A stretch of DNA of 43,419 nucleotides, from positions 1 through 43,419 of the IMG/VR virus record IMGVR_UViG_3300042923_000202, one strand, 5' to 3'. This DNA is from a virus. Each line of letters opens with the position of its first letter. The first letter of the stretch is position 1. Under the pieces are notes generated by a model. The model saw nothing but the letters and a program-made list of their open reading frames with translations. It did not search any database and was not told the DNA's origin. Made by a program: the position numbers and the translations under genes. Shown here one piece after another: positions 18,641 through 34,380 of the stretch.

Positions 18641-19261
18641 ATGGCTGCGCGCAGTATAAGCTTGGATGAGGCCCGAGCCCTAGGGCTAAAGCGATACTCC
18701 ACTGGAAAACCGTGCAAGAACGGGCACATATCCGAAAGGGTTGTCTCGAACAAAACCTGCGTAGAATGCCTTTACGAAAGAGCGCGCGCCAAGTACGCCG
18801 AGGACCCTAGCAAGGTAAAGGAAAGGGCGATCGAGTGGTCAAGGAGCAATCCAGAAAGGAACCGCGCCAGGTCGGCTGCCTGGCAAAAGAATAATCAGGA
18901 TCGGATCTCGGAGAGATGGAGGCGGCAATACGCTAACGATCCCGAGTTCAGGTGCAGGTCAATCCTCCGCAGCATGGTCAGTAGGGTCATCAAGCTCACA
19001 AAAAGAGGTAAGACCTCAAAGACTTTCGATGCGCTGGGCTACAGTGCAGGCGACTTCATGGCGCACATAGAGCGGCAGTTTTTGCAAGGAATGGCTTGGG
19101 AGAATCACGGCGAATGGCATGTGGATCACATCTCGTCAGTTGCGGAGCTTACCGCTTCAGGGGTATTCGATCCTGCAGTGATCAATTGCCTCTCAAACCT
19201 CCGGCCTATATGGGCATCCGACAATCTTAGGAAGGGTGCCACCCAGACATACCTTCTGTAG
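18641..19261 (+). CDS. HNH homing endonuclease
   Basis: A 206-aa free-standing HNH enzyme. The N-terminus has a zinc-like CKNGHISERVVSNKTCVECL block; a very basic, repeated helical linker follows (NPERNRARSAAWQKNNQDRISERW); the HNH core is EWHVDHISSVAEL...VINCLSNLRPIWASDNLRKG. Codon use differs from its neighbours (AGG, AGA and ATA are common), which suggests recent arrival. It interrupts the head module between the Mu F-like gene and scaffold, with a hairpin before and a terminator after. GAGAGG precedes the ATG. Confidence 0.88.
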   Translation: MAARSISLDEARALGLKRYSTGKPCKNGHISERVVSNKTCVECLYERARAKYAEDPSKVKERAIEWSRSNPERNRARSAAWQKNNQDRISERWRRQYANDPEFRCRSILRSMVSRVIKLTKRGKTSKTFDALGYSAGDFMAHIERQFLQGMAWENHGEWHVDHISSVAELTASGVFDPAVINCLSNLRPIWASDNLRKGATQTYLL

Positions 19262-19349: not shown

Positions 19350-20078
19350 ATGAAATACCTGATCGACAAGGCCGCCTACGACGCTTTGGAACCATCCCTG
19401 CAAGCGTTGTACAAGGCTCAGGGTGAAGACTACGTGCTGGCCGTTGAAGGCTTGCCGCAACCTCAAAATGAGGACGTGAGCGGCCTGAAAGCCAAGAACG
19501 ACGAGCTGCTTGCCGAGCTTCGTGCCAATAAGGCAAAAGCACGCGAGGCGGAAGAGGCTGCGCGCATCGCTGCTGAAGAAGCTGCCCGCAAGTCTGGCGA
19601 CACCGAAGCTCTCGACCGCAGCTGGAGCGAGAAGCACACCAAGGCGTTGGGCGAGAAAGACACAGCGTTGACCGCGCTCCAGCAGCAGGTTCACGCGCTC
19701 ACTGTTGGTGCCACTGCAGCCCGCCTGGCTGGTGAGCTGGCTGTGCAAGGCTCATCGGGCGTCTTGCAGAAGCTCATCGAGCCGAGCCTGAGCATGGAAA
19801 TGCGCGACGGCAAGCCTGTCGTGGTCGTGCTTGACGCAGAGCGCCGCCCTACGGCCCTGACTGTGGATGAATTCAAGAATCAACTCTTCAACGACGCCGC
19901 ATTGGCGCCGCTGATCGCAGCAAGCAGAGCGACTGGGGGCGGGGCTCCCGGGAACAAGAGCGGCGGGGCCGCGAAATCGTTTGACCAACTGACCGGCATG
20001 GAGCGCGTAGAGCTTCGCCGAACCAACCCTGCCGAGTACGAGCGCCTCAAGGCTGCGTCTGCCTCGGCTAAGAAATAA
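19350..20078 (+). CDS. Scaffold-like protein
   Basis: A 242-aa protein between the portal/head genes and the major capsid. Helical, charged coiled coil (about 45-115, GLKAKNDELLAELRANKAKAREAEEAARI...) and a C-terminal basic tail (MERVELRRTNPAEYERLKAA), as in phage scaffolds, which fill the procapsid and leave or are cleaved before packaging. No protease gene is seen nearby. GGGGGA precedes the ATG at 19350. Confidence 0.85.
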   Translation: MKYLIDKAAYDALEPSLQALYKAQGEDYVLAVEGLPQPQNEDVSGLKAKNDELLAELRANKAKAREAEEAARIAAEEAARKSGDTEALDRSWSEKHTKALGEKDTALTALQQQVHALTVGATAARLAGELAVQGSSGVLQKLIEPSLSMEMRDGKPVVVVLDAERRPTALTVDEFKNQLFNDAALAPLIAASRATGGGAPGNKSGGAAKSFDQLTGMERVELRRTNPAEYERLKAASASAKK

Positions 20079-20090
20079 GGAAACCCCGCA

Positions 20091-21110
20091 ATGCCAACCA
20101 TTCTCTCGGACGTCGTATTCCGCGACGAACTGCGTGACTACATCGCCGTAAACAGCGTTGAGCGCACCGCGTTCTTCGAGTCCGGCATTCTGACCACCAA
20201 CAGCGACATGACCACGCTGCTGGCGAGCCCTTCGAACACCTTCACCATTCCGTGGTGGGTCGATCTGGATGCGTCCATCGAGTCCAACTACTCGAACGAC
20301 GTGTACACCGACATCGCGGTTCCGCTGTCTGTCACCAGTGCTTTCATGCAGGCGCGCGCCGCGTACCTCAACGAAGGCTGGAACTGCATGAACCTGGTGA
20401 AGAACATCACCAATCAGGACCCGCTGGAATTCGTGGCTGGTCGCCTGCTGAGCTACTGGCGTCGAGTGGCCCAGCGCCGCGCAATCGCTACCACTGTCGG
20501 TGTCTACAACGACAACGTGACCAGCAATGGCGGCGACATGGTTATCGACGCTGGCGGCACCATCAACGCCGCAGCGATCATCCGCGCCAAGGCCACGATG
20601 GGTGATTACAGTGGACAGCTGGGCGGTCTGAGCGTCATCGCCATGCACTCCGCTGTACAGACCGAACTGCAAATCCTCAACCTGATCGACTTCTCGCCTC
20701 TGGCTGACCAGATCCCCGAGTTCGGTCGCTTCCAGGGTATGCGCGTCGTTGTCGACGACTCCATGCCGGTCGTTGGCACCGGTGCCGATGCGAAATACCT
20801 TTCGGTTATCTTCGGCCCAGGTGCGCTGGGTTACGCCGAGGCCCAACCAGAAGGCGAAGACGGCCTCGAGTACGAGCGCGCTCCGGATCGCGGCAATGGT
20901 GGCGGCACTGAAACCTTGTGGACTCGCCGCAACTTCGTTGTGCATCCACTGGGCTACTCGTTCACCAGTGCCACCATCACCGGCACGCCGACCACCAGTC
21001 GCCCAGTATCGGCCAACTGGTCAGACCTGGCGCTGGCATCCAACTGGGAGCGCAAGTTCGACCGCAAGCAAGTGCCTCTGGCGTTCATCACCTCCACCGT
21101 GTCGGCCTAA
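20091..21110 (+). CDS. Major capsid protein
   Basis: A 339-aa protein directly after the scaffold, with AAGGAAA upstream. It fits the HK97-fold coat proteins of this length by features such as TPTILSDVVF...FFESGILTT near the start, the AAIIRAKATMGD...SVIAMHSAVQTELQ helix and hairpin region, and MRVVVDDSMPVV. It forms the icosahedral shell. No N-terminal delta domain to be removed is obvious, which fits a separate scaffold. Confidence 0.88.
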   Translation: MPTILSDVVFRDELRDYIAVNSVERTAFFESGILTTNSDMTTLLASPSNTFTIPWWVDLDASIESNYSNDVYTDIAVPLSVTSAFMQARAAYLNEGWNCMNLVKNITNQDPLEFVAGRLLSYWRRVAQRRAIATTVGVYNDNVTSNGGDMVIDAGGTINAAAIIRAKATMGDYSGQLGGLSVIAMHSAVQTELQILNLIDFSPLADQIPEFGRFQGMRVVVDDSMPVVGTGADAKYLSVIFGPGALGYAEAQPEGEDGLEYERAPDRGNGGGTETLWTRRNFVVHPLGYSFTSATITGTPTTSRPVSANWSDLALASNWERKFDRKQVPLAFITSTVSA

Positions 21111-21143
21111 CGCGCACCGGGCAACCGGAGCAAAGGAGGCCAT

Positions 21144-22142
21144 ATGGCAGACGAACAAGACCCGCTCATGGTGGGTGGGCGCATCCCTTACCGGTACAGC
21201 CTCGGAAAGCTCTACACCGATCTGGTCTCAATGATCAGGCGGCAGGGTGCGCGAACGCTGCAGTTCCAGGTGGATGACCAGCAGAACCTGATGTGGAAGT
21301 GGTCTGACGAGAGGGCTTGGCGCGAAATCATGGATTTGGCCGACCTTCCTCAACAGGCTGCGACAGGTCCTGCTGGCCCTCAGGGGCCGAAGGGGGATCG
21401 CGGCGAGCCAGGTCCTGCAGGCGAGCGAGGCGAAACAGGCCCAAAGGGCGACCAAGGGAATCCCGGCACTGCCGGACCCATGGGAAGCCCCGGACCTGCT
21501 GGCCCAGCTGGAATGCCCGGCCCGCAAGGGATCGCCGGACAACCCGGCGCGCTTGGGCCTGCTGGTCCGCAAGGCGAGCTCGGACCTGTAGGCGAGAAGG
21601 GCGACAAGGGTGCTACCGGCAGCAAGGGTGAAGCCGGGCCTGTCGGCCCTGCTGGTCCTACCGGTGCGGCCGGAGCCAAAGGCGATCCCGGAGTCCAAGG
21701 CGTCCAGGGCGTGAAGGGCGATCAGGGTTCGCCCGGCGCAGCTGGTCCCGCCGGAGCCAAGGGCGACAAGGGCGATACAGGGCCGCAGGGACCGATCGGA
21801 CCTGCAGGAGCAAAAGGCGACACTGGCTCCCAAGGATCAACCGGGCCAGCCGGGCCTCAGGGCGCAGCAGGCGCACAGCCTGAAGTTCTATCCGGCACTG
21901 TGGTAACGGCAGGCGCCAAGGTTGCGGTGAAGTTCGCCAAGACCTACGCCACTCCCCCGGTCGTCCAGCCTTCGCCCACTTGGAACAACCAGCAGATGGT
22001 CATCGGCGTAGCCAGTGAAGTCACAACCACCGGCTGCAACATCACCGTCATGCAATCCACTGGAACACTGCTGCTCAACGGCAGCCCATTTGGTACGGCA
22101 CCCGCCGGCACCGCATTCCGCATGATCGCCTTCGGTACATAG
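21144..22142 (+). CDS. Collagen-like structural protein in the head module
   Basis: A 332-aa protein in three parts: a 74-residue N-terminal domain ([23 protein letters not shown]...); an unbroken collagen-like run of 57 Gly-X-Y triplets from Gly75 to Gly243, with many GPAGP and GAKGDKGD units; and an 88-residue C-terminal beta-rich domain ending FRMIAFGT, which could nucleate the trimer. AAAGGAGG precedes the ATG. It sits between the capsid gene and connector genes, not with the tail fibres. SPP1 gp12 is a known collagen-like capsid decoration protein, so a head-surface role is the leading guess; a fibre is the alternative. Confidence 0.88.
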
Positions 22143-22152
22143 GAGAATCACC

Positions 22153-22350
22153 ATGGCTGTTGAACAAGACAAGCATATCGATCCAAACGTGAAGTCTCGC
22201 TGGGGTTTTGGCGGCTCGGAAGGCAACATCACCGTCGGCCCTCAGACTGTCGGTGAGACCGGCGGCGTCGATACTGTGCGTACCGATGCCGACGAGCCAG
22301 CAGCACGCAACAATGGCGCAGGTACTACCGGCAAGAAGTCCAAGGAGTAA
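22153..22350 (+). CDS. Small head-module protein
   Basis: A 65-aa, Gly-rich and probably disordered protein (AVEQDKHIDPNVKSRWGFGG...TTGKKSKE). AGGAGA precedes the ATG. It lies between the collagen-like gene and the head-tail connector. Function unknown; it could be an accessory capsid protein by position. Confidence 0.65.
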   Translation: MAVEQDKHIDPNVKSRWGFGGSEGNITVGPQTVGETGGVDTVRTDADEPAARNNGAGTTGKKSKE

Positions 22351-29300: not shown

Positions 29301-31068
29301 CCGCCTGGGCGTTCAGGTTCGCGAGGATGTATTCGACAACTTTAGCGTTGCCATCCAGCAAATCAGCACCAAGGACAAAACCCAGGAAGAGATTCAAGCC
29401 GAAATAACTAAGTTCTTCACTGGTGTCGGCGACTCAATGGTTCAGACCATTGCCGACGCAACCGGCGAACTGAGTCTGAAAAACTACGATTTGGCCGGCC
29501 TGCAAGCTTTCGTACAGACGCTGTTCGACGTCAACGCGGTATTGGAAAAAACCAATATCAAGATGGCTGAGATTTCGGTTGGCGGAGCGCATGTTACCGA
29601 AGCATTGGTTGCGCTTTCTGGCGGCATGGAACAGCTGAACACCAACGCGGCGACATATTACGAGAACTTCATTTCTCAGGCTGAGCGGAACGACGACGTC
29701 CTGACTCAGGTCGGTCGCCAGTTCGCAGCGTTGAATGTGGCGTTCCCGGCAACCCGCGACGGCTTCAAAATGCTTGTTGAGTCGCTGGACGTCACAACCG
29801 ATGTCGGCCGTCAGATGTACGTGACGTTGATGGGTCTAGCAGGTGGTGCGGCATCGGCCTATACGATCCTCGAAGACCGCGCGACGGCTGCTGCTCAGGC
29901 TGCCGCTGATGCTGCTCAAGCGCTTTTCGACAAGATGGTGGGCGCAGCCGGTACTGCTCAAAGCGCTGTCCAGAGGGCAATCGCTGCTGAGCAGAATAAG
30001 GCGACCGCGGCCTACAACGCGCGCGTTACCTCGCTCAACGACATGTCGAGCACGGCCTCGAAGTCTGTTTCGGAACTCACAAGCGTCAGCAGTTCGTTGA
30101 GCAATGCCCTCAAGGCGCTGCGCGGCGATTCCGACGAAGCGGTGAAGATGCTCCAGACGCAGGCCCGCGCGACGTTGCAGTCGGCGTTGGCAACCGCGCG
30201 TTCTGGCGGTTCGCTGGCTGGCTTCTCCGGTCTGGACGATGCGCTGAGTACCGTCAGCGAGAACAACACCGATCTTTACGGATCGATGGAGGATTTCGCG
30301 CGGGATCAGGGGCGCACTGCGAATGTCGTGGCCGAGCTCAACGCCATCAACGGCAAGCAGCTCACGTCGGCTGAGAAAACCGTCAAGGCGCTGCAGGACC
30401 AGCTGGACCAGGCCAAAGCGGCGTATGACGCGCAGATGGCTCAGTTCGACGCTCAGTTGGAGTTCGCTCAGGCGCAGATGGACGCGCTGAACGGGGTCGA
30501 TAACTCCATCATGGGCGTGACCGCTGCGATCAATGCCATGAATGCGGCGGTGCTTGCCGCTCTCAAGGGCGGAGTCGGAAGCGGCTCTGTGCTGACGCCT
30601 GGAAATTCAGCAACAGCCATCGAAACCGCGTATCAGGCGATTCTCGGCCGGGATGCTGATGCGGCTGGCCTTGCTTACTGGCAGCAGCAGCTGGCATCCA
30701 AGGCGATCGGCCTGACCCAGCTTGAAGAAGCCATTCGCAACGCAGCCAAAGCCAACGGATCAATCCCTGCATTTGCTTCTGGCGGTATGCATACGGGCGG
30801 GATTCGTCTGGTGGGTGAGAAGGGTCCAGAGCTGGAGGTCACTGGCCCGAGCCGTATCTTCAATGCCAGCCAGACGGCAGCAATGCTCAGAGGTGGCGGT
30901 GCAAATGATTCGGCGTCAGTCGAGGAGCTGCGCGGCCTGCGCAAGGAGATGGAAGAAAACTCCAAGTACATGAGCGGGCAACTCAAGGCCATGGCAAACC
31001 ACTTGGACGACATCGTCAACGGCGGCGTCCAGATCGTCGGCACAGTCGAAACTAAGGCGGTAGCATGA
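26305..31068 (+). CDS. Tape measure protein
   Basis: A 1587-aa tape measure, the largest gene. N-terminal part: ARLTIVVDSSQARNANKDLGALERGA and QSFAQKTPYDLNQAVKGFTQLVNLGL, typical of long-tail TMPs. Helical coiled-coil regions fill about 340-700. A Gly/Ala-rich hydrophobic segment (about 870-935, GAALGGIAAGAISGTALGATIG...) could insert in membrane. Near the C-terminus (about 1435-1490) is a DUF4214-like unit (AYQAILGRDADAAGLAYWQQQL), then the common IRLVGEKGPELEVTGPSRIFN motif. At about 1.5 A per residue a tail near 240 nm would be expected. Confidence 0.95.
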   Translation: MSDTARLTIVVDSSQARNANKDLGALERGASSLASGLRGLIAPLIGVAGAMAALNKASEVQRQFDVLNAGLITATGSADKAAGAFKALQSFAQKTPYDLNQAVKGFTQLVNLGLTPSEKALMSYGNTASAMGKDLNQMIEAVADAATGEFERLKEFGIKAKANGDSLSLTFQGMTKKIGNNAAEIEKYLTDLGENQFAGAMELRMKTLDGAVANLGDTWDTTFRLINEAGLGDAMQDAVREATDALSELNDQIASGELETNLAAVAGKFDGFGRDIEYTLGEISKLFVDSTGYWGRTLDANVANMTQTFREFPENVRAFIQVMTVEVLAGFDKVKAYARAFNDGINAIFTNDTFEGVGARLEAELNVANTAREGTLQSIFDEREASLSSFAAQTQAAKDQRKAFDEKAAADAANTSDRLAQFKVVGEATKQQTDAEKKAAKEAESLAARQKKALDDLVTQADINTNSTNAMADAYLGGATSVRELTIQQKVEEELLKTGAGARSQVVDAINKEADARDRLDLSESNAARRVDTANTLSQAAATLKGSSALEEYNATKAITLALSGKKIAADSAEYKQLVETTKAQLAANKALQQAGKVESIVDRLSPQTKLLRDYTEEQEALNAAIALGEGDTALYQATLAKLAVEYEQNKNAATAWGQFTEGAVDRVDDAFADAWKNIDEGFDGFATSLKEGFKQLLAELAHMAITKPIIMQIGAAMGVGGLSASGPGGVLSTLTGGSSGSPLLSGIKTLADISTSSFGQALGNGWASGEGLFGGLQGAASNGYNFLSGIFAGGGAGAAASTGAAQGAAAFGSQFLADSGAATISFPGAAPVADAATGAAGAGWGSVGAIGSGLLGAYQGYKQNGLKGAVATGGLAYGGAVGGAALGGIAAGAISGTALGATIGSVVPVIGTVIGAALGTALGGKLFSGEWITKDMGLQLGVTDGELTANNYEYQKKKGGLFSSNKKRTKLSPLEDEQQTAMEQALSGTAFTAVDAFSRLGVQVREDVFDNFSVAIQQISTKDKTQEEIQAEITKFFTGVGDSMVQTIADATGELSLKNYDLAGLQAFVQTLFDVNAVLEKTNIKMAEISVGGAHVTEALVALSGGMEQLNTNAATYYENFISQAERNDDVLTQVGRQFAALNVAFPATRDGFKMLVESLDVTTDVGRQMYVTLMGLAGGAASAYTILEDRATAAAQAAADAAQALFDKMVGAAGTAQSAVQRAIAAEQNKATAAYNARVTSLNDMSSTASKSVSELTSVSSSLSNALKALRGDSDEAVKMLQTQARATLQSALATARSGGSLAGFSGLDDALSTVSENNTDLYGSMEDFARDQGRTANVVAELNAINGKQLTSAEKTVKALQDQLDQAKAAYDAQMAQFDAQLEFAQAQMDALNGVDNSIMGVTAAINAMNAAVLAALKGGVGSGSVLTPGNSATAIETAYQAILGRDADAAGLAYWQQQLASKAIGLTQLEEAIRNAAKANGSIPAFASGGMHTGGIRLVGEKGPELEVTGPSRIFNASQTAAMLRGGGANDSASVEELRGLRKEMEENSKYMSGQLKAMANHLDDIVNGGVQIVGTVETKAVA

Positions 31069-31985
31069 GTGAAATGAAGGTGGTGCCGGGGTTAGAGATA
31101 ACTCCGGCTCGTCTCGTCGCGAGCAATTTGCCGGACATGGATTATCCGGCGTACGACCCGACTGCGGCTTACGAGGTCGGCGACAAGGTGACTATTGACC
31201 GGGTCAACTACGAGGCGCTGGTAGATCACTCCGGCCGCAATCCGGTGACCGACACCAAGACGCCCGCCGCATGGCAGGCTCTCGGCTGGGTTAACAAGTA
31301 CCGGATGTTCAACAAGAACATTGGCAACACATGGAAGATCGGCACATTTACCGCGAATGCAGAAGAGATTGACCTGACTATCCGCCCAGGCACTCGGGTG
31401 AATGCCATCGGCCTTGTCGGGGTAATCGCCTCCAGTGTCCGCATCATCATGACGGTGCCCGGTACGGGTGATCCTGTGTATGACGAGACGTTTTCCATGT
31501 CTCTGAAGGCAGGAGGCAGCTGGTATCAGTACTACTTCGGCCCATTCACCACTCGCGACAACATCACATCGTTCGACCTTCCTCCCTTTGCAAACGCCGA
31601 TGTGCGCGTGATCGTCAGCGCGCCAGGCAGCACCGCGCAGGTCGGGATGCTGGTGCTGGGGTGGTCGAAAACCATCGGCACGGCCGTTTACGGCACCTCA
31701 CTTGGCCGCAAAAAGTACACGTCCCTCAAGGAAGAGTTTGACGGCAGCGTGACCATGACCAAACGCGGTCGCCGCCGGTTCATCAACTTCCAGGTTGTTC
31801 TGGAAAGCGACCAGATATCCAGCACGCAACGCGTCCTCGACTCCGTTGATGACACCCCTGCGCTCTTCGTGGGCGCGAACGAGCTGGACTACACGGCAAT
31901 CGTCGGGATCTTCGACGACTTCGACACGGGCCTGCCGACCTACGGGCGCGGCGAATACACACTCAGAGTCAGGAGCCTAATGTAA
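31065..31985 (+). CDS. Minor tail protein with carbohydrate-binding-like domain
   Basis: A 306-aa protein directly after the tape measure. Residues about 28-75 (YDPTAAYEVGDKVTIDRVNYEALVDHSGRNP...W) resemble a small carbohydrate-binding (CBM5/12-like) module. The rest is beta-rich (VRIIMTVPGTGDPVYDETFSMSLKAGG; EFDGSVTMTKRGRRRFINFQVVLES). The position is that of a distal tail or tip protein. Four-base overlap with the tape measure. Confidence 0.7.
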   Translation: MSEMKVVPGLEITPARLVASNLPDMDYPAYDPTAAYEVGDKVTIDRVNYEALVDHSGRNPVTDTKTPAAWQALGWVNKYRMFNKNIGNTWKIGTFTANAEEIDLTIRPGTRVNAIGLVGVIASSVRIIMTVPGTGDPVYDETFSMSLKAGGSWYQYYFGPFTTRDNITSFDLPPFANADVRVIVSAPGSTAQVGMLVLGWSKTIGTAVYGTSLGRKKYTSLKEEFDGSVTMTKRGRRRFINFQVVLESDQISSTQRVLDSVDDTPALFVGANELDYTAIVGIFDDFDTGLPTYGRGEYTLRVRSLM

Positions 31986-32510: not shown

Positions 32511-32930
32511 GTGCCAATGACATTCACCGCGCCATTCGCTCAAATTCCACGAACGCTGTCTGCTGCCGTTACCGCAGCCATTGGCGGGCTGGGAACCGAC
32601 ACAATCACCGGATCGCAGCTGCTGATCACTGCAGGAGCCAACGGCGCGGTGGTGACAGGTATCAGTGCCATGCCTAGGGCTACGGTAACGGCATCGTCGC
32701 TCGTCCTGTTCCTCGTAAAAGCAGCTACCCCCAACGTCTACCGTCCGATTGATTCGGTCCTGATGGCCGCTTATACCCAGGCGGTGACGACCGCGCTGCC
32801 TGTCACGACCTTCCCGCTGATCAGTGATGCAGCCCCGCTTCGACTGGAAGCTGGCGACAAAATCTATGTCGGCTCCGAGGTCGCGCTTGCGGCTGGCATC
32901 GTCTTCACTGGCCGCTGGATGGATTACTGA
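32511..32930 (+). CDS. Small beta-rich tail protein
   Basis: A 139-aa protein. The GTG at 32511 is favoured by a GAGGA 8 bases upstream; an ATG at 32517 would shorten it by two residues. Thr/Ala/Val-rich strands (TITGSQLLITAGANGAVVTGI; TVTASSLVLFLVKAATP) suggest a beta-sandwich like a fibre head or tip decoration. No family recognised. Ends at the start of the Gly-rich adhesin gene. Confidence 0.65.
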   Translation: MPMTFTAPFAQIPRTLSAAVTAAIGGLGTDTITGSQLLITAGANGAVVTGISAMPRATVTASSLVLFLVKAATPNVYRPIDSVLMAAYTQAVTTALPVTTFPLISDAAPLRLEAGDKIYVGSEVALAAGIVFTGRWMDY

Positions 32931-33775
32931 TGGCCTCGGTAATCGACCTTGGGAACCCTCTCGCCATCCCCAAGGCAGTGGCAGATAACCGGCCGTCTCA
33001 ACCGCCTCGTAGCTACTACATCGACTCTGGTTCCGGCACGATAACTATTGATACCCGAGGCTATAAGAAAATCCGCGTCAGCGGGGTGGGTGGAGGTGGC
33101 GGCGGGCAAGGATTCTCCGGTGGGATTGGCGGCGGCGGGGGAGGTACTGACTCAACGCCTATTTTGAACATTTCCGCAGCCTCCATTGATGTCGTGTATT
33201 CAGTAGGCGCTGGCGGCATAGGCGGTTCTCAATCCGTATCTCCTACAGAGGGTGGCGACACTACTGCAAGCGTGATGGGGTATTCCATAAAGGCCGGTGG
33301 TGCTGGGACGAACCGAGCCGGCGCGGGCGGGCTTCGAGGTTTCGACGGCGGTACTGGCGGGCAAATGGATGCGGGGTCTAACTCCGGATCGGGCGGGGGT
33401 GGCGCAGCAGGCTTCCTGGCGCCAGGAGCAAATGGCGGCACAGCTGGGAGTAATGGCGTTGACGCTAACGCTGATGCCGGTTCGGGCGGCGCTGCAGGGG
33501 GCACCGGCACGGTGGGCGTCGGTGGTGCTGGCGGAGGCGGCCAAGGCGCAAGAGGCGGCGGCACGACCGCAAGGCCGGGCGGTGCAATCGGGGTCGTTTT
33601 ACCTGTAGGCGTAATTCCTGAAAGGCTAGGGTCTGACGGCGTCAGCCTTACGGCGAACAGCAATTCTGGCAGTGATGGCGGGGCCGGCGGGGGTGGGGGC
33701 GGGGGCGGCCGATACACCACAAGCTCCCGAGGAGGTAACGGTGGAGCTGGCAGACTGAGGATAGAATTATGGTGA
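32930..33775 (+). CDS. Glycine-rich tail adhesin-like protein
   Basis: A 281-aa protein. About residues 52-75 and 110-275 are very Gly-rich (GVGGGGGGQGFSGGIGGGGGG; GGAGGGGGGGG), broken by short hydrophobic strands. Such Gly-rich blocks are known in the polyglycine-II adhesins of T-even-like phages (gp38 type) where loops bind receptors. Family membership is not shown, but a receptor-binding tip is the best guess from composition and position. It overlaps the fibre-assembly gene by 7 bp. Confidence 0.7.
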   Translation: MASVIDLGNPLAIPKAVADNRPSQPPRSYYIDSGSGTITIDTRGYKKIRVSGVGGGGGGQGFSGGIGGGGGGTDSTPILNISAASIDVVYSVGAGGIGGSQSVSPTEGGDTTASVMGYSIKAGGAGTNRAGAGGLRGFDGGTGGQMDAGSNSGSGGGGAAGFLAPGANGGTAGSNGVDANADAGSGGAAGGTGTVGVGGAGGGGQGARGGGTTARPGGAIGVVLPVGVIPERLGSDGVSLTANSNSGSDGGAGGGGGGGGRYTTSSRGGNGGAGRLRIELW

Positions 33776-34380
33776 AGATAGAAAATGGCGTTGCATCCCG
33801 CGAGCCACTGCCTAAATTTCTGATGGGGCTTGCGCCGGAATCGCTGGCAGACCTGTCTTGGACTGACCCGCAGCTTGGCGTTCAGGGCGCCGCATGGTGG
33901 CCCGAGGAAGACCAAAGCGGCGAGCTGGCCGCGAACAAGAAGTGGGGCGCTGAAACTCTGACCCCTGATGCGGAACGCAAGGTAGTCATTGTGAAGCGTA
34001 AGCAGGTGGCGATGACCAAGGCCGAGATCGCGGAGCGGGATGAGGCGATAACGGAAGGCTGGAGGCAGCAGATCGAAGCCCGCCGCTACCAAGCCGAGAT
34101 CGGCGGCATCGAACTGCAGGGCCTGCCCATCGCAACCGACGACCGTAGCAAAACGTTGATCAACGGATCGGCACTCAAGTCGCTGCGCAATTCGGCGTAC
34201 ACATTGCGGTGGAAGACTGAAGAGGGCTTCATCGACCTGCCGGCTGACCAGGTGCTGGTTATGGCCGACGCGGTGGCCGATCACGTGCAGGCCTGCTTCG
34301 ACCGCGAGGCCGAACTGCAAGCCGCTGTGGCTGACGGATCGATCACCGCTGAAATGATCGAGCAGGGCTGGCCCTCGTAA
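33769..34380 (+). CDS. Tail fibre assembly-like protein (DUF4376 type)
   Basis: A 203-aa protein. The C-terminal half (RRYQAEIGGIELQGLPIATDDRSKTLINGSA; W-K-T-E-E-GFIDLPADQVLVMADAVADHVQACFDREAELQAAV) fits DUF4376, usually attached to tail-fibre assembly proteins. It follows the presumed adhesin, as expected for a chaperone of the receptor-binding protein. A terminator follows. Confidence 0.8.
   Translation: MVKIENGVASREPLPKFLMGLAPESLADLSWTDPQLGVQGAAWWPEEDQSGELAANKKWGAETLTPDAERKVVIVKRKQVAMTKAEIAERDEAITEGWRQQIEARRYQAEIGGIELQGLPIATDDRSKTLINGSALKSLRNSAYTLRWKTEEGFIDLPADQVLVMADAVADHVQACFDREAELQAAVADGSITAEMIEQGWPS

Follow-up and report, generated by a model that had tools for sequence, protein, structure and literature searches.

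The gene at 21144-22142 (+ strand) of the window (the entire 43,419-base stretch of viral DNA that we analyzed) likely codes for a head fibre, which we propose to be trimeric and probably dispensable. Comparisons with related contigs are more consistent with a trimeric fibre anchored on the capsid than with a tail fibre. The original prediction, that this protein is a head fibre or decoration, is partly supported: the N-terminal domain followed the major capsid protein (MCP) gene in all eight related contigs, it appears to move with that gene, and the gene occupies a position that corresponds to a slot for head decorations in the Guernseyvirinae.

The fibre gene and its collagen-like stalk

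The fibre gene is located in the head module. Upstream are genes for terminase, portal, a Mu-F-like protein, scaffold, and the MCP (20091-21110, +; phrog_247, 5.5e-90), which is co-inherited with the fibre and is its proposed docking partner. Downstream are an open reading frame (ORF) of 65 amino acids (22153-22350, +), adaptor Ad1, closure Hc1, and Neck1, and beyond Neck1 are the tail terminator, the major tail protein, the tape measure, and a tail-fibre-type protein (33769-34380). The predicted placement between the major capsid and connector genes was thus correct. The window also encodes an integrase. An ORF of 206 amino acids (18641-19261), located between the genes for MuF and scaffold, looked by eye like an HNH endonuclease. 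A glycine-rich ORF of 281 amino acids in the tail-distal region (32930-33775) had no PHROG match and adjoins the tail-fibre-type gene; it is a candidate for the receptor-binding protein.

The fibre ORF encodes 332 amino acids, starts with ATG, ends with TAG, and is closely preceded by a strong Shine-Dalgarno sequence (AAAGGAGG, 21131-21138, +, read directly). The protein consists of an N-domain of 74 residues (residues 1-74; 21144-21365, +), proposed to be the capsid anchor given its linkage to the MCP family, a collagen-like stalk (residues 75-245; 21366-21878, +) of 57 Gly-X-Y triplets without a break, and a C-domain of 87 residues (residues 246-332; 21879-22139, +), proposed from its model and fold matches to be a trimeric lectin-like knob. 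Both the number of uninterrupted triplets and the presence of separate domains on either side of them had been predicted, and both were found. If the stalk forms a triple helix, its 171 residues would extend for about 50 nm, the same length as in the prediction, using the same value of 0.29 nm per residue.

The Gly-X-Y run did not arise by chance or from tandem repetition of DNA. The protein matched Pfam Collagen (PF01391) with 99.5 bits (cut-off 27.2). The longest run among 20,000 shuffles of the protein was 11 triplets, ruling out chance, and Tandem Repeats Finder detected just three arrays, each of two to three nine-base units, ruling out an origin as a DNA tandem repeat. We compared the aligned glycine codons of the window with those of four relatives (L092, L093, L094, and L099) and found 17, 33, 47, and 38 synonymous differences, respectively (135 in all), and no non-synonymous differences, with the caveat that glycines beside gaps may be lined up by the alignment itself. 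Over the whole stalk, there were 12, 28, 63, and 49 non-synonymous differences from the same relatives. Based on the 135 synonymous and zero non-synonymous differences at glycine positions, we conclude that the Gly-X-Y pattern is under selection. The number of triplets varied, with 57 in the window and 58, 48, 56, and 44 in the four relatives.

Linkage of the fibre to the major capsid protein

The N-domain was found only next to one family of MCPs. Relatives of the fibre gene were present in eight contigs, five from a search with the MCP and three more (those of L083, L099, and L100) from searches with the N- and C-domains. In all eight, approximately 30 bases separate the start of the N-domain from an MCP gene of this family, whose product was 79-99% identical to the MCP of the window. 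The comparison with L002, the closest relative, separates this pair of genes from their neighbours: the MCP and N-domain were 99% and 97% identical to those of the window, and the portal, MuF, and scaffold proteins were 37%, 31%, and 42% identical. At the DNA level, a cassette containing the end of the scaffold gene, the MCP and fibre genes, and most of the 65-amino-acid gene (19894-22318, +) had 91% identity to L002, and outside of it the L002 locus matched the window in only two short and weaker stretches. We read this cassette as a unit that is exchanged between phages whose head genes otherwise diverge. A relative of Ad1 was found in one of the eight fibre contigs and none was detectable in L002. 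Searches with the major tail protein and with residues 1-500 of the tape measure each matched none of the eight contigs, several of which are fragments, and neither search had its own positive control. The protein encoded at 31065-31985, downstream of the tape measure, had a relative with 54% identity in L002, the only contig matched, indicating that the tail of L002 is not wholly unrelated to that of the window. Overall, these comparisons suggest that the fibre follows the MCP, independently of the portal, adaptor, and tail-tube genes.

The fibre gene is optional: most relatives of the MCP are without it, and where present it is inserted between the MCP gene and the 65-amino-acid gene. The MCP had 201 relatives in IMG/VR, and among the best 80 of these (more distant relatives are outside this frequency), five had the fibre gene (L002, L077, and L079-L081) and 79 had a relative of the 65-amino-acid protein, located after the MCP or after the fibre where one is present. 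The one exception, L039, ends 78 bases after its MCP. A scan of bacterial genomes for the MCP yielded 13 loci: nine in Pseudomonas (including two contigs of one strain), two in Pantoea, and one each in Mixta and Siccibacter. There was no fibre gene at any of the 13 among the ORFs listed within 1.5 kb after the MCP match; two of the loci (L127 and L128) hold a partial MCP and a third (L121) showed no ORF of the 65-amino-acid type. Because most of these loci are in Pseudomonas, with the others in Pantoea, Mixta, and Siccibacter, the host of this phage is probably within that range.

On an MCP tree of 84 rows (74 of them different), the distribution of the fibre required four changes, compared to a mean of 6.8 when labels were shuffled, and one of 500 shuffles was as low; L039 was labelled as without fibre although only 78 bases follow its MCP. 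From the four changes, it follows that gain or loss of the fibre is mosaic. When we compared MCP residues between fibre carriers and the others, a single column, residue 233, differed. It was aspartate in 6 of 7 carriers versus 11 of 66 others (with L039 dropped), a weak difference that we took as no result.

A search of 50,697 phage records with the N-domain yielded nothing at E <= 0.1, and no tail N-terminal family in Pfam or PHROG matched it. Its AlphaFold2 model was too poor for a fold search (pLDDT 53). On its own, the N-domain matched Pfam BsuPI with 23.3 bits (cut-off 22.9) over 33 residues (21255-21353), which is probably due to chance or a common beta motif.

The 65-amino-acid protein is conserved in its front part (79 of 80 loci, from the best 80 of the 201 MCP relatives). 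Many of its relatives (e.g., L006, L009, L032, and L037) have long and varied C-terminal extensions that end in a repeated 'LT..IKEQLDAKGV.Y...A.K.ELL.LL' motif. This protein may have a decoration or connector function of its own, and it could be the anchor of the fibre.

The C-domain and exchange of the stalk

The C-domain is predicted to have a lectin-like fibre-knob fold. An AlphaFold2 model based on an alignment of 19 sequences (the window and loci) had a mean pLDDT of 91.3 and a pTM of 0.78, and was nearly all beta. The best matches to this model in the PDB found with Foldseek were the Helix agglutinins (E 0.035-0.059, probability 0.98-0.99) and the phi297 tailspike. With VIA-align, the highest Z scores were for discoidin II (8.6), LKA1 gp49 (7.1), AP22 gp53 (7.0), the R2 pyocin fibre (6.8), the Pam1 tailspike (6.8), the Sf6 tailspike (6.6), and the Helix agglutinins (6.6), with the program's warning that Z under 8 alone can reflect a common arrangement. 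All of the top 20 rows (Z >= 5.5) were lectins or fibre and spike proteins of phages or pyocins and the next row had a Z of 4.0; sequence identities of the structure matches to the C-domain were 9-21%.

The C-domain scored 18.4 bits with Pfam H_lectin (PF09458), below the cut-off of 24, and a C-domain profile run against the sequences of solved structures gave two chance-level matches only (E 0.48 and 2.3). We take SLL-2 to belong with the H-type lectins. In BFVD, the sole hit under 0.001 was a protein of 487 residues with 58% identity and the length of gp19 of Pantoea phage vB_PagM_AAM22 (see below), and several entries further down were named H-type lectin or tail fibre. These matches support a lectin-like fibre knob, but do not establish the C-domain as an H-type lectin. 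Based on the predicted fold, binding of the fibre to host surfaces, as had been suggested, is plausible.

Different stalks were found between the same N- and C-domains. Five phages, including that of the window, have collagen in this position and four contigs have phage-tail repeats. The latter proteins (identical in L079-L081, plus that of L100) are without collagen, and their N-domains and C-domains are 44-47% and 62-65% identical, respectively, to those of the window. Their stalks consist of HxH repeats, which in L079 matched Pfam PTR (PF12789) with 51.2 bits (cut-off 27). The fibre protein of L079 also matched a head-and-packaging family, phrog_1954, that is matched by gp42 of Salmonella phage FSL SP-031 as well. 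Judging from these alignments, the stalk is exchangeable between fixed ends.

The C-domain is also found with other N-termini. An alignment search with the C-domain yielded 20 loci, eight with an N-domain of the window type and 12 without. The proteins at these 12 loci contain collagen, LSIGTVTTL-type repeats, or both. Gene neighbourhoods were listed for seven of the 12 (L101, L102, L103, L105, L106, L110, and L111), and for the L095 contig as L088. By eye, the C-domain protein in L101, L102, L103, L105, and L106 is encoded after lysis-type genes and before terminase-like genes; the next ORF is presumably small-terminase-like in L101, L102, L105, and L106, and large-terminase-like in L103. The N-termini in L088, L110, and L111 resemble that of AAM22 gp19. 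A scan of bacterial genomes for the C-domain gave 109 pattern stretches, none of which was confirmed.

A probable head fibre compared with other explanations and known systems

By analogy with EPclA and SPP1 gp12, we propose that the product is a trimeric fibre with a knob, a collagen rod of approximately 50 nm, and an N-domain anchored on the capsid. The C-domains would trimerise and start the zipping of the collagen helix. Once the capsid has expanded, the N-domain would dock on its lattice of MCPs, similarly to SPP1 gp12, which binds at hexon centres. Kept approximately 50 nm from the shell by the stalk, the knob could bind weakly but multivalently to a glycan or to another structure on a surface, and virions would thus be held near cells until the tail reaches its receptor. 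The order of the domains, the selection on glycine, and the linkage to the MCP are read from the sequences, and the trimer, its docking site, its copy number, and its ligand are inferred. The fibre is probably a second, head-borne means of sticking to surfaces.

We weighed this proposal against four others. It is unlikely that the protein is a tail or tail-tip fibre whose gene lies within the head module by chance. Tail fibres often contain collagen stalks or PTR repeats, the fold of the C-domain is known from tail fibres and tailspikes, and the whole protein matched 44 PHROG families, mostly of tail fibres. We dropped the tail-fibre name because these matches rest on the repeat; the isolated N- and C-domains matched no PHROG family. 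Furthermore, the N-domain tracks the MCP and is without a match to tail N-terminal families, the major tail protein and the N-terminal part of the tape measure were unmatched in eight of eight contigs (with the fragments and missing positive control mentioned above), and the phage has a separate tail-fibre-type gene (33769-34380). A neck or collar whisker near the portal vertex, present in few copies per virion, would be consistent with the connector genes that adjoin the fibre gene. We consider it improbable given that the fibre and MCP share 91% DNA identity with L002, where the portal is only 37% identical and Ad1 has no detectable relative.

It is very unlikely that the protein serves chiefly as capsid-stabilising cement, with the stalk and knob secondary. 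The slot adjoins the MCP and some decoration proteins are described as stabilising capsids (PMC7602432), but cement needs no exposed rod of 50 nm with a lectin-like knob, most MCP relatives manage without the fibre, and SPP1 gp12 is reported to be non-essential (PMC6813328). Finally, the integrase, together with NCBIfam matches below the cut-off to collagen-like adhesins of bacteria, could indicate an adhesin that is produced by the lysogen and is not part of the virion. This is extremely improbable: the gene has a late head-gene setting and its own strong Shine-Dalgarno sequence, we saw no secretion signal by eye, and the NCBIfam matches scored 101-115 bits versus cut-offs of 325-500.

Returning to the head fibre, we counted in its favour the position between MCP and connector genes, the linkage of the N-domain to the MCP, the 91% cassette, selection on glycine, the fold of the C-domain, the Hoc-like and 'head fiber' slot, the phrog_1954 match of L079, and the virion-confirmed protein CB7_10 (below). 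We counted against it the tail-fibre PHROG hits, the sharing of the C-domain with other proteins, the presence of the fibre in only five of the best 80 of 201 MCP relatives and in none of the 13 bacterial loci, the poor model of the N-domain, the relative of the 31065-31985 protein in L002, and the H_lectin score below cut-off.

We tentatively extend this to a modular adhesive organ of the head, in which an interchangeable collagen or HxH rod links a lectin-like tip to an anchor specific for the capsid, all inherited in one cassette with the MCP and independently of the portal and tail tube. If true, phages in the Pseudomonas and Pantoea range would gain a swappable glycan-binding system held approximately 50 nm off the shell, a head counterpart of module exchange in tail fibres. 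Collagen proteins of phages are often labelled tail fibres, and the sequence evidence suggests that some of them belong to the head and travel together with the capsid gene. Since relatives with equal ends and different stalks occur naturally, the contributions of fibre length and of the tip to adsorption are open to testing, and a capsid anchor bearing a long collagen rod is a possible display scaffold.

Collagen-like decoration of capsids is already known from SPP1 gp12, of which the fibre described here would be a longer, lectin-tipped variant. The new elements are the long unbroken rod, the lectin-like knob, the swap of the rod between fixed ends, and the inheritance in a cassette with the MCP. 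In our literature searches on collagen head fibres and lectin-tipped phage collagens, we noticed no long lectin-tipped collagen head fibre, which does not exclude that one exists.

The slot of the fibre gene appears to be the head-decoration slot of the Guernseyvirinae, where Hoc-like and 'head fiber' proteins are encoded. The gene order in Salmonella phage FSL SP-031, whose MCP is 51% identical to that of the window, is MCP, gp42, gp43, gp44, Ad1. gp42 matches a 'head fiber protein' (phrog_4366, 3.4e-9) in addition to the virion structural protein family phrog_1954, and gp43 matches a Hoc-like head decoration (phrog_4069, 1.5e-54). In a comparison of four sequences, gp44 was 35% identical over 60 residues to the 65-amino-acid family member in L006 (E 6e-8), and no hit was printed for the window's own copy. 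Like the window fibre, the Hoc-like decoration is encoded between the MCP and a gene of the 65-amino-acid type before Ad1. It has an Ig-like domain and neither collagen nor a stalk, in contrast to the collagen stalk of the fibre, and the Ig family was absent from the Pfam matches of the whole fibre protein and of its ends.

SPP1 gp12 shares with the fibre a collagen-like stretch, a gene in the capsid module, and being optional (PMC6316719, PMC6813328). Trimers of gp12 with a collagen-like fold are described at the hexon centres of the expanded capsid, on the A-loops of the MCP (PMC6813328). gp12 has 64 amino acids in total, in agreement with the much shorter collagen part mentioned in the original prediction, and its gene is between those for scaffold and MCP, on the upstream side of the MCP (PMC6316719). 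In contrast, the window fibre has 332 amino acids, 57 triplets, and a folded C-terminal knob, and is encoded after the MCP.

Other collagen proteins of phages resemble the fibre in part. gp19 of AAM22, annotated as a collagen 'structural protein', has a C-domain that is 53-59% identical and a run of 55 triplets, and is encoded in the head/connector region. It differs in having another, longer N-terminal part, belonging to a phage with a tail sheath, and having no related MCP adjacent. The collagen gene of AAM22 (L084, 6230-7393) is followed by a gene on the opposite strand annotated as an adhesin with a YadA anchor. EPclA, from prophages of E. coli O157:H7, has an N-domain, a collagen rod, and a trimeric C-domain, as determined experimentally (PMC3368898); unlike the proposed head fibre, EPclA proteins are described as side tail fibres and have a coiled coil and PfN and PfC domains (PMC3368898). 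CB7_10 of Pectobacterium phage CB7 was detected in virions by mass spectrometry and named a putative tail fibre (PMC7344957). We found that CB7_10 (L131, 8031-11330) is a collagen protein encoded two genes after the MCP, with several runs, the longest of 23 triplets, and it may be a head protein.

The predicted fold of the C-domain resembles H-type lectins (Helix agglutinins and discoidin II) and the knobs of AP22 gp53, the R2 pyocin, and LKA1 gp49. A function in adhesion has precedents among head fibres that are built differently. phi29 gp8.5 and the fibres of phage 7-7-1 are flexible or trimeric head fibres linked to contact with the cell or flagellum (PMC7602432, PMC12796354). Those of phi29 are helical (PMC7602432), and those of 7-7-1 are 88-114 nm long, with one per vertex, and make the first contact with the flagellum (PMC12796354). 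The roles of Hoc, pb10, gp12, and gp8.5, as reviewed, include adhesion to the host via carbohydrates (PMC7602432).
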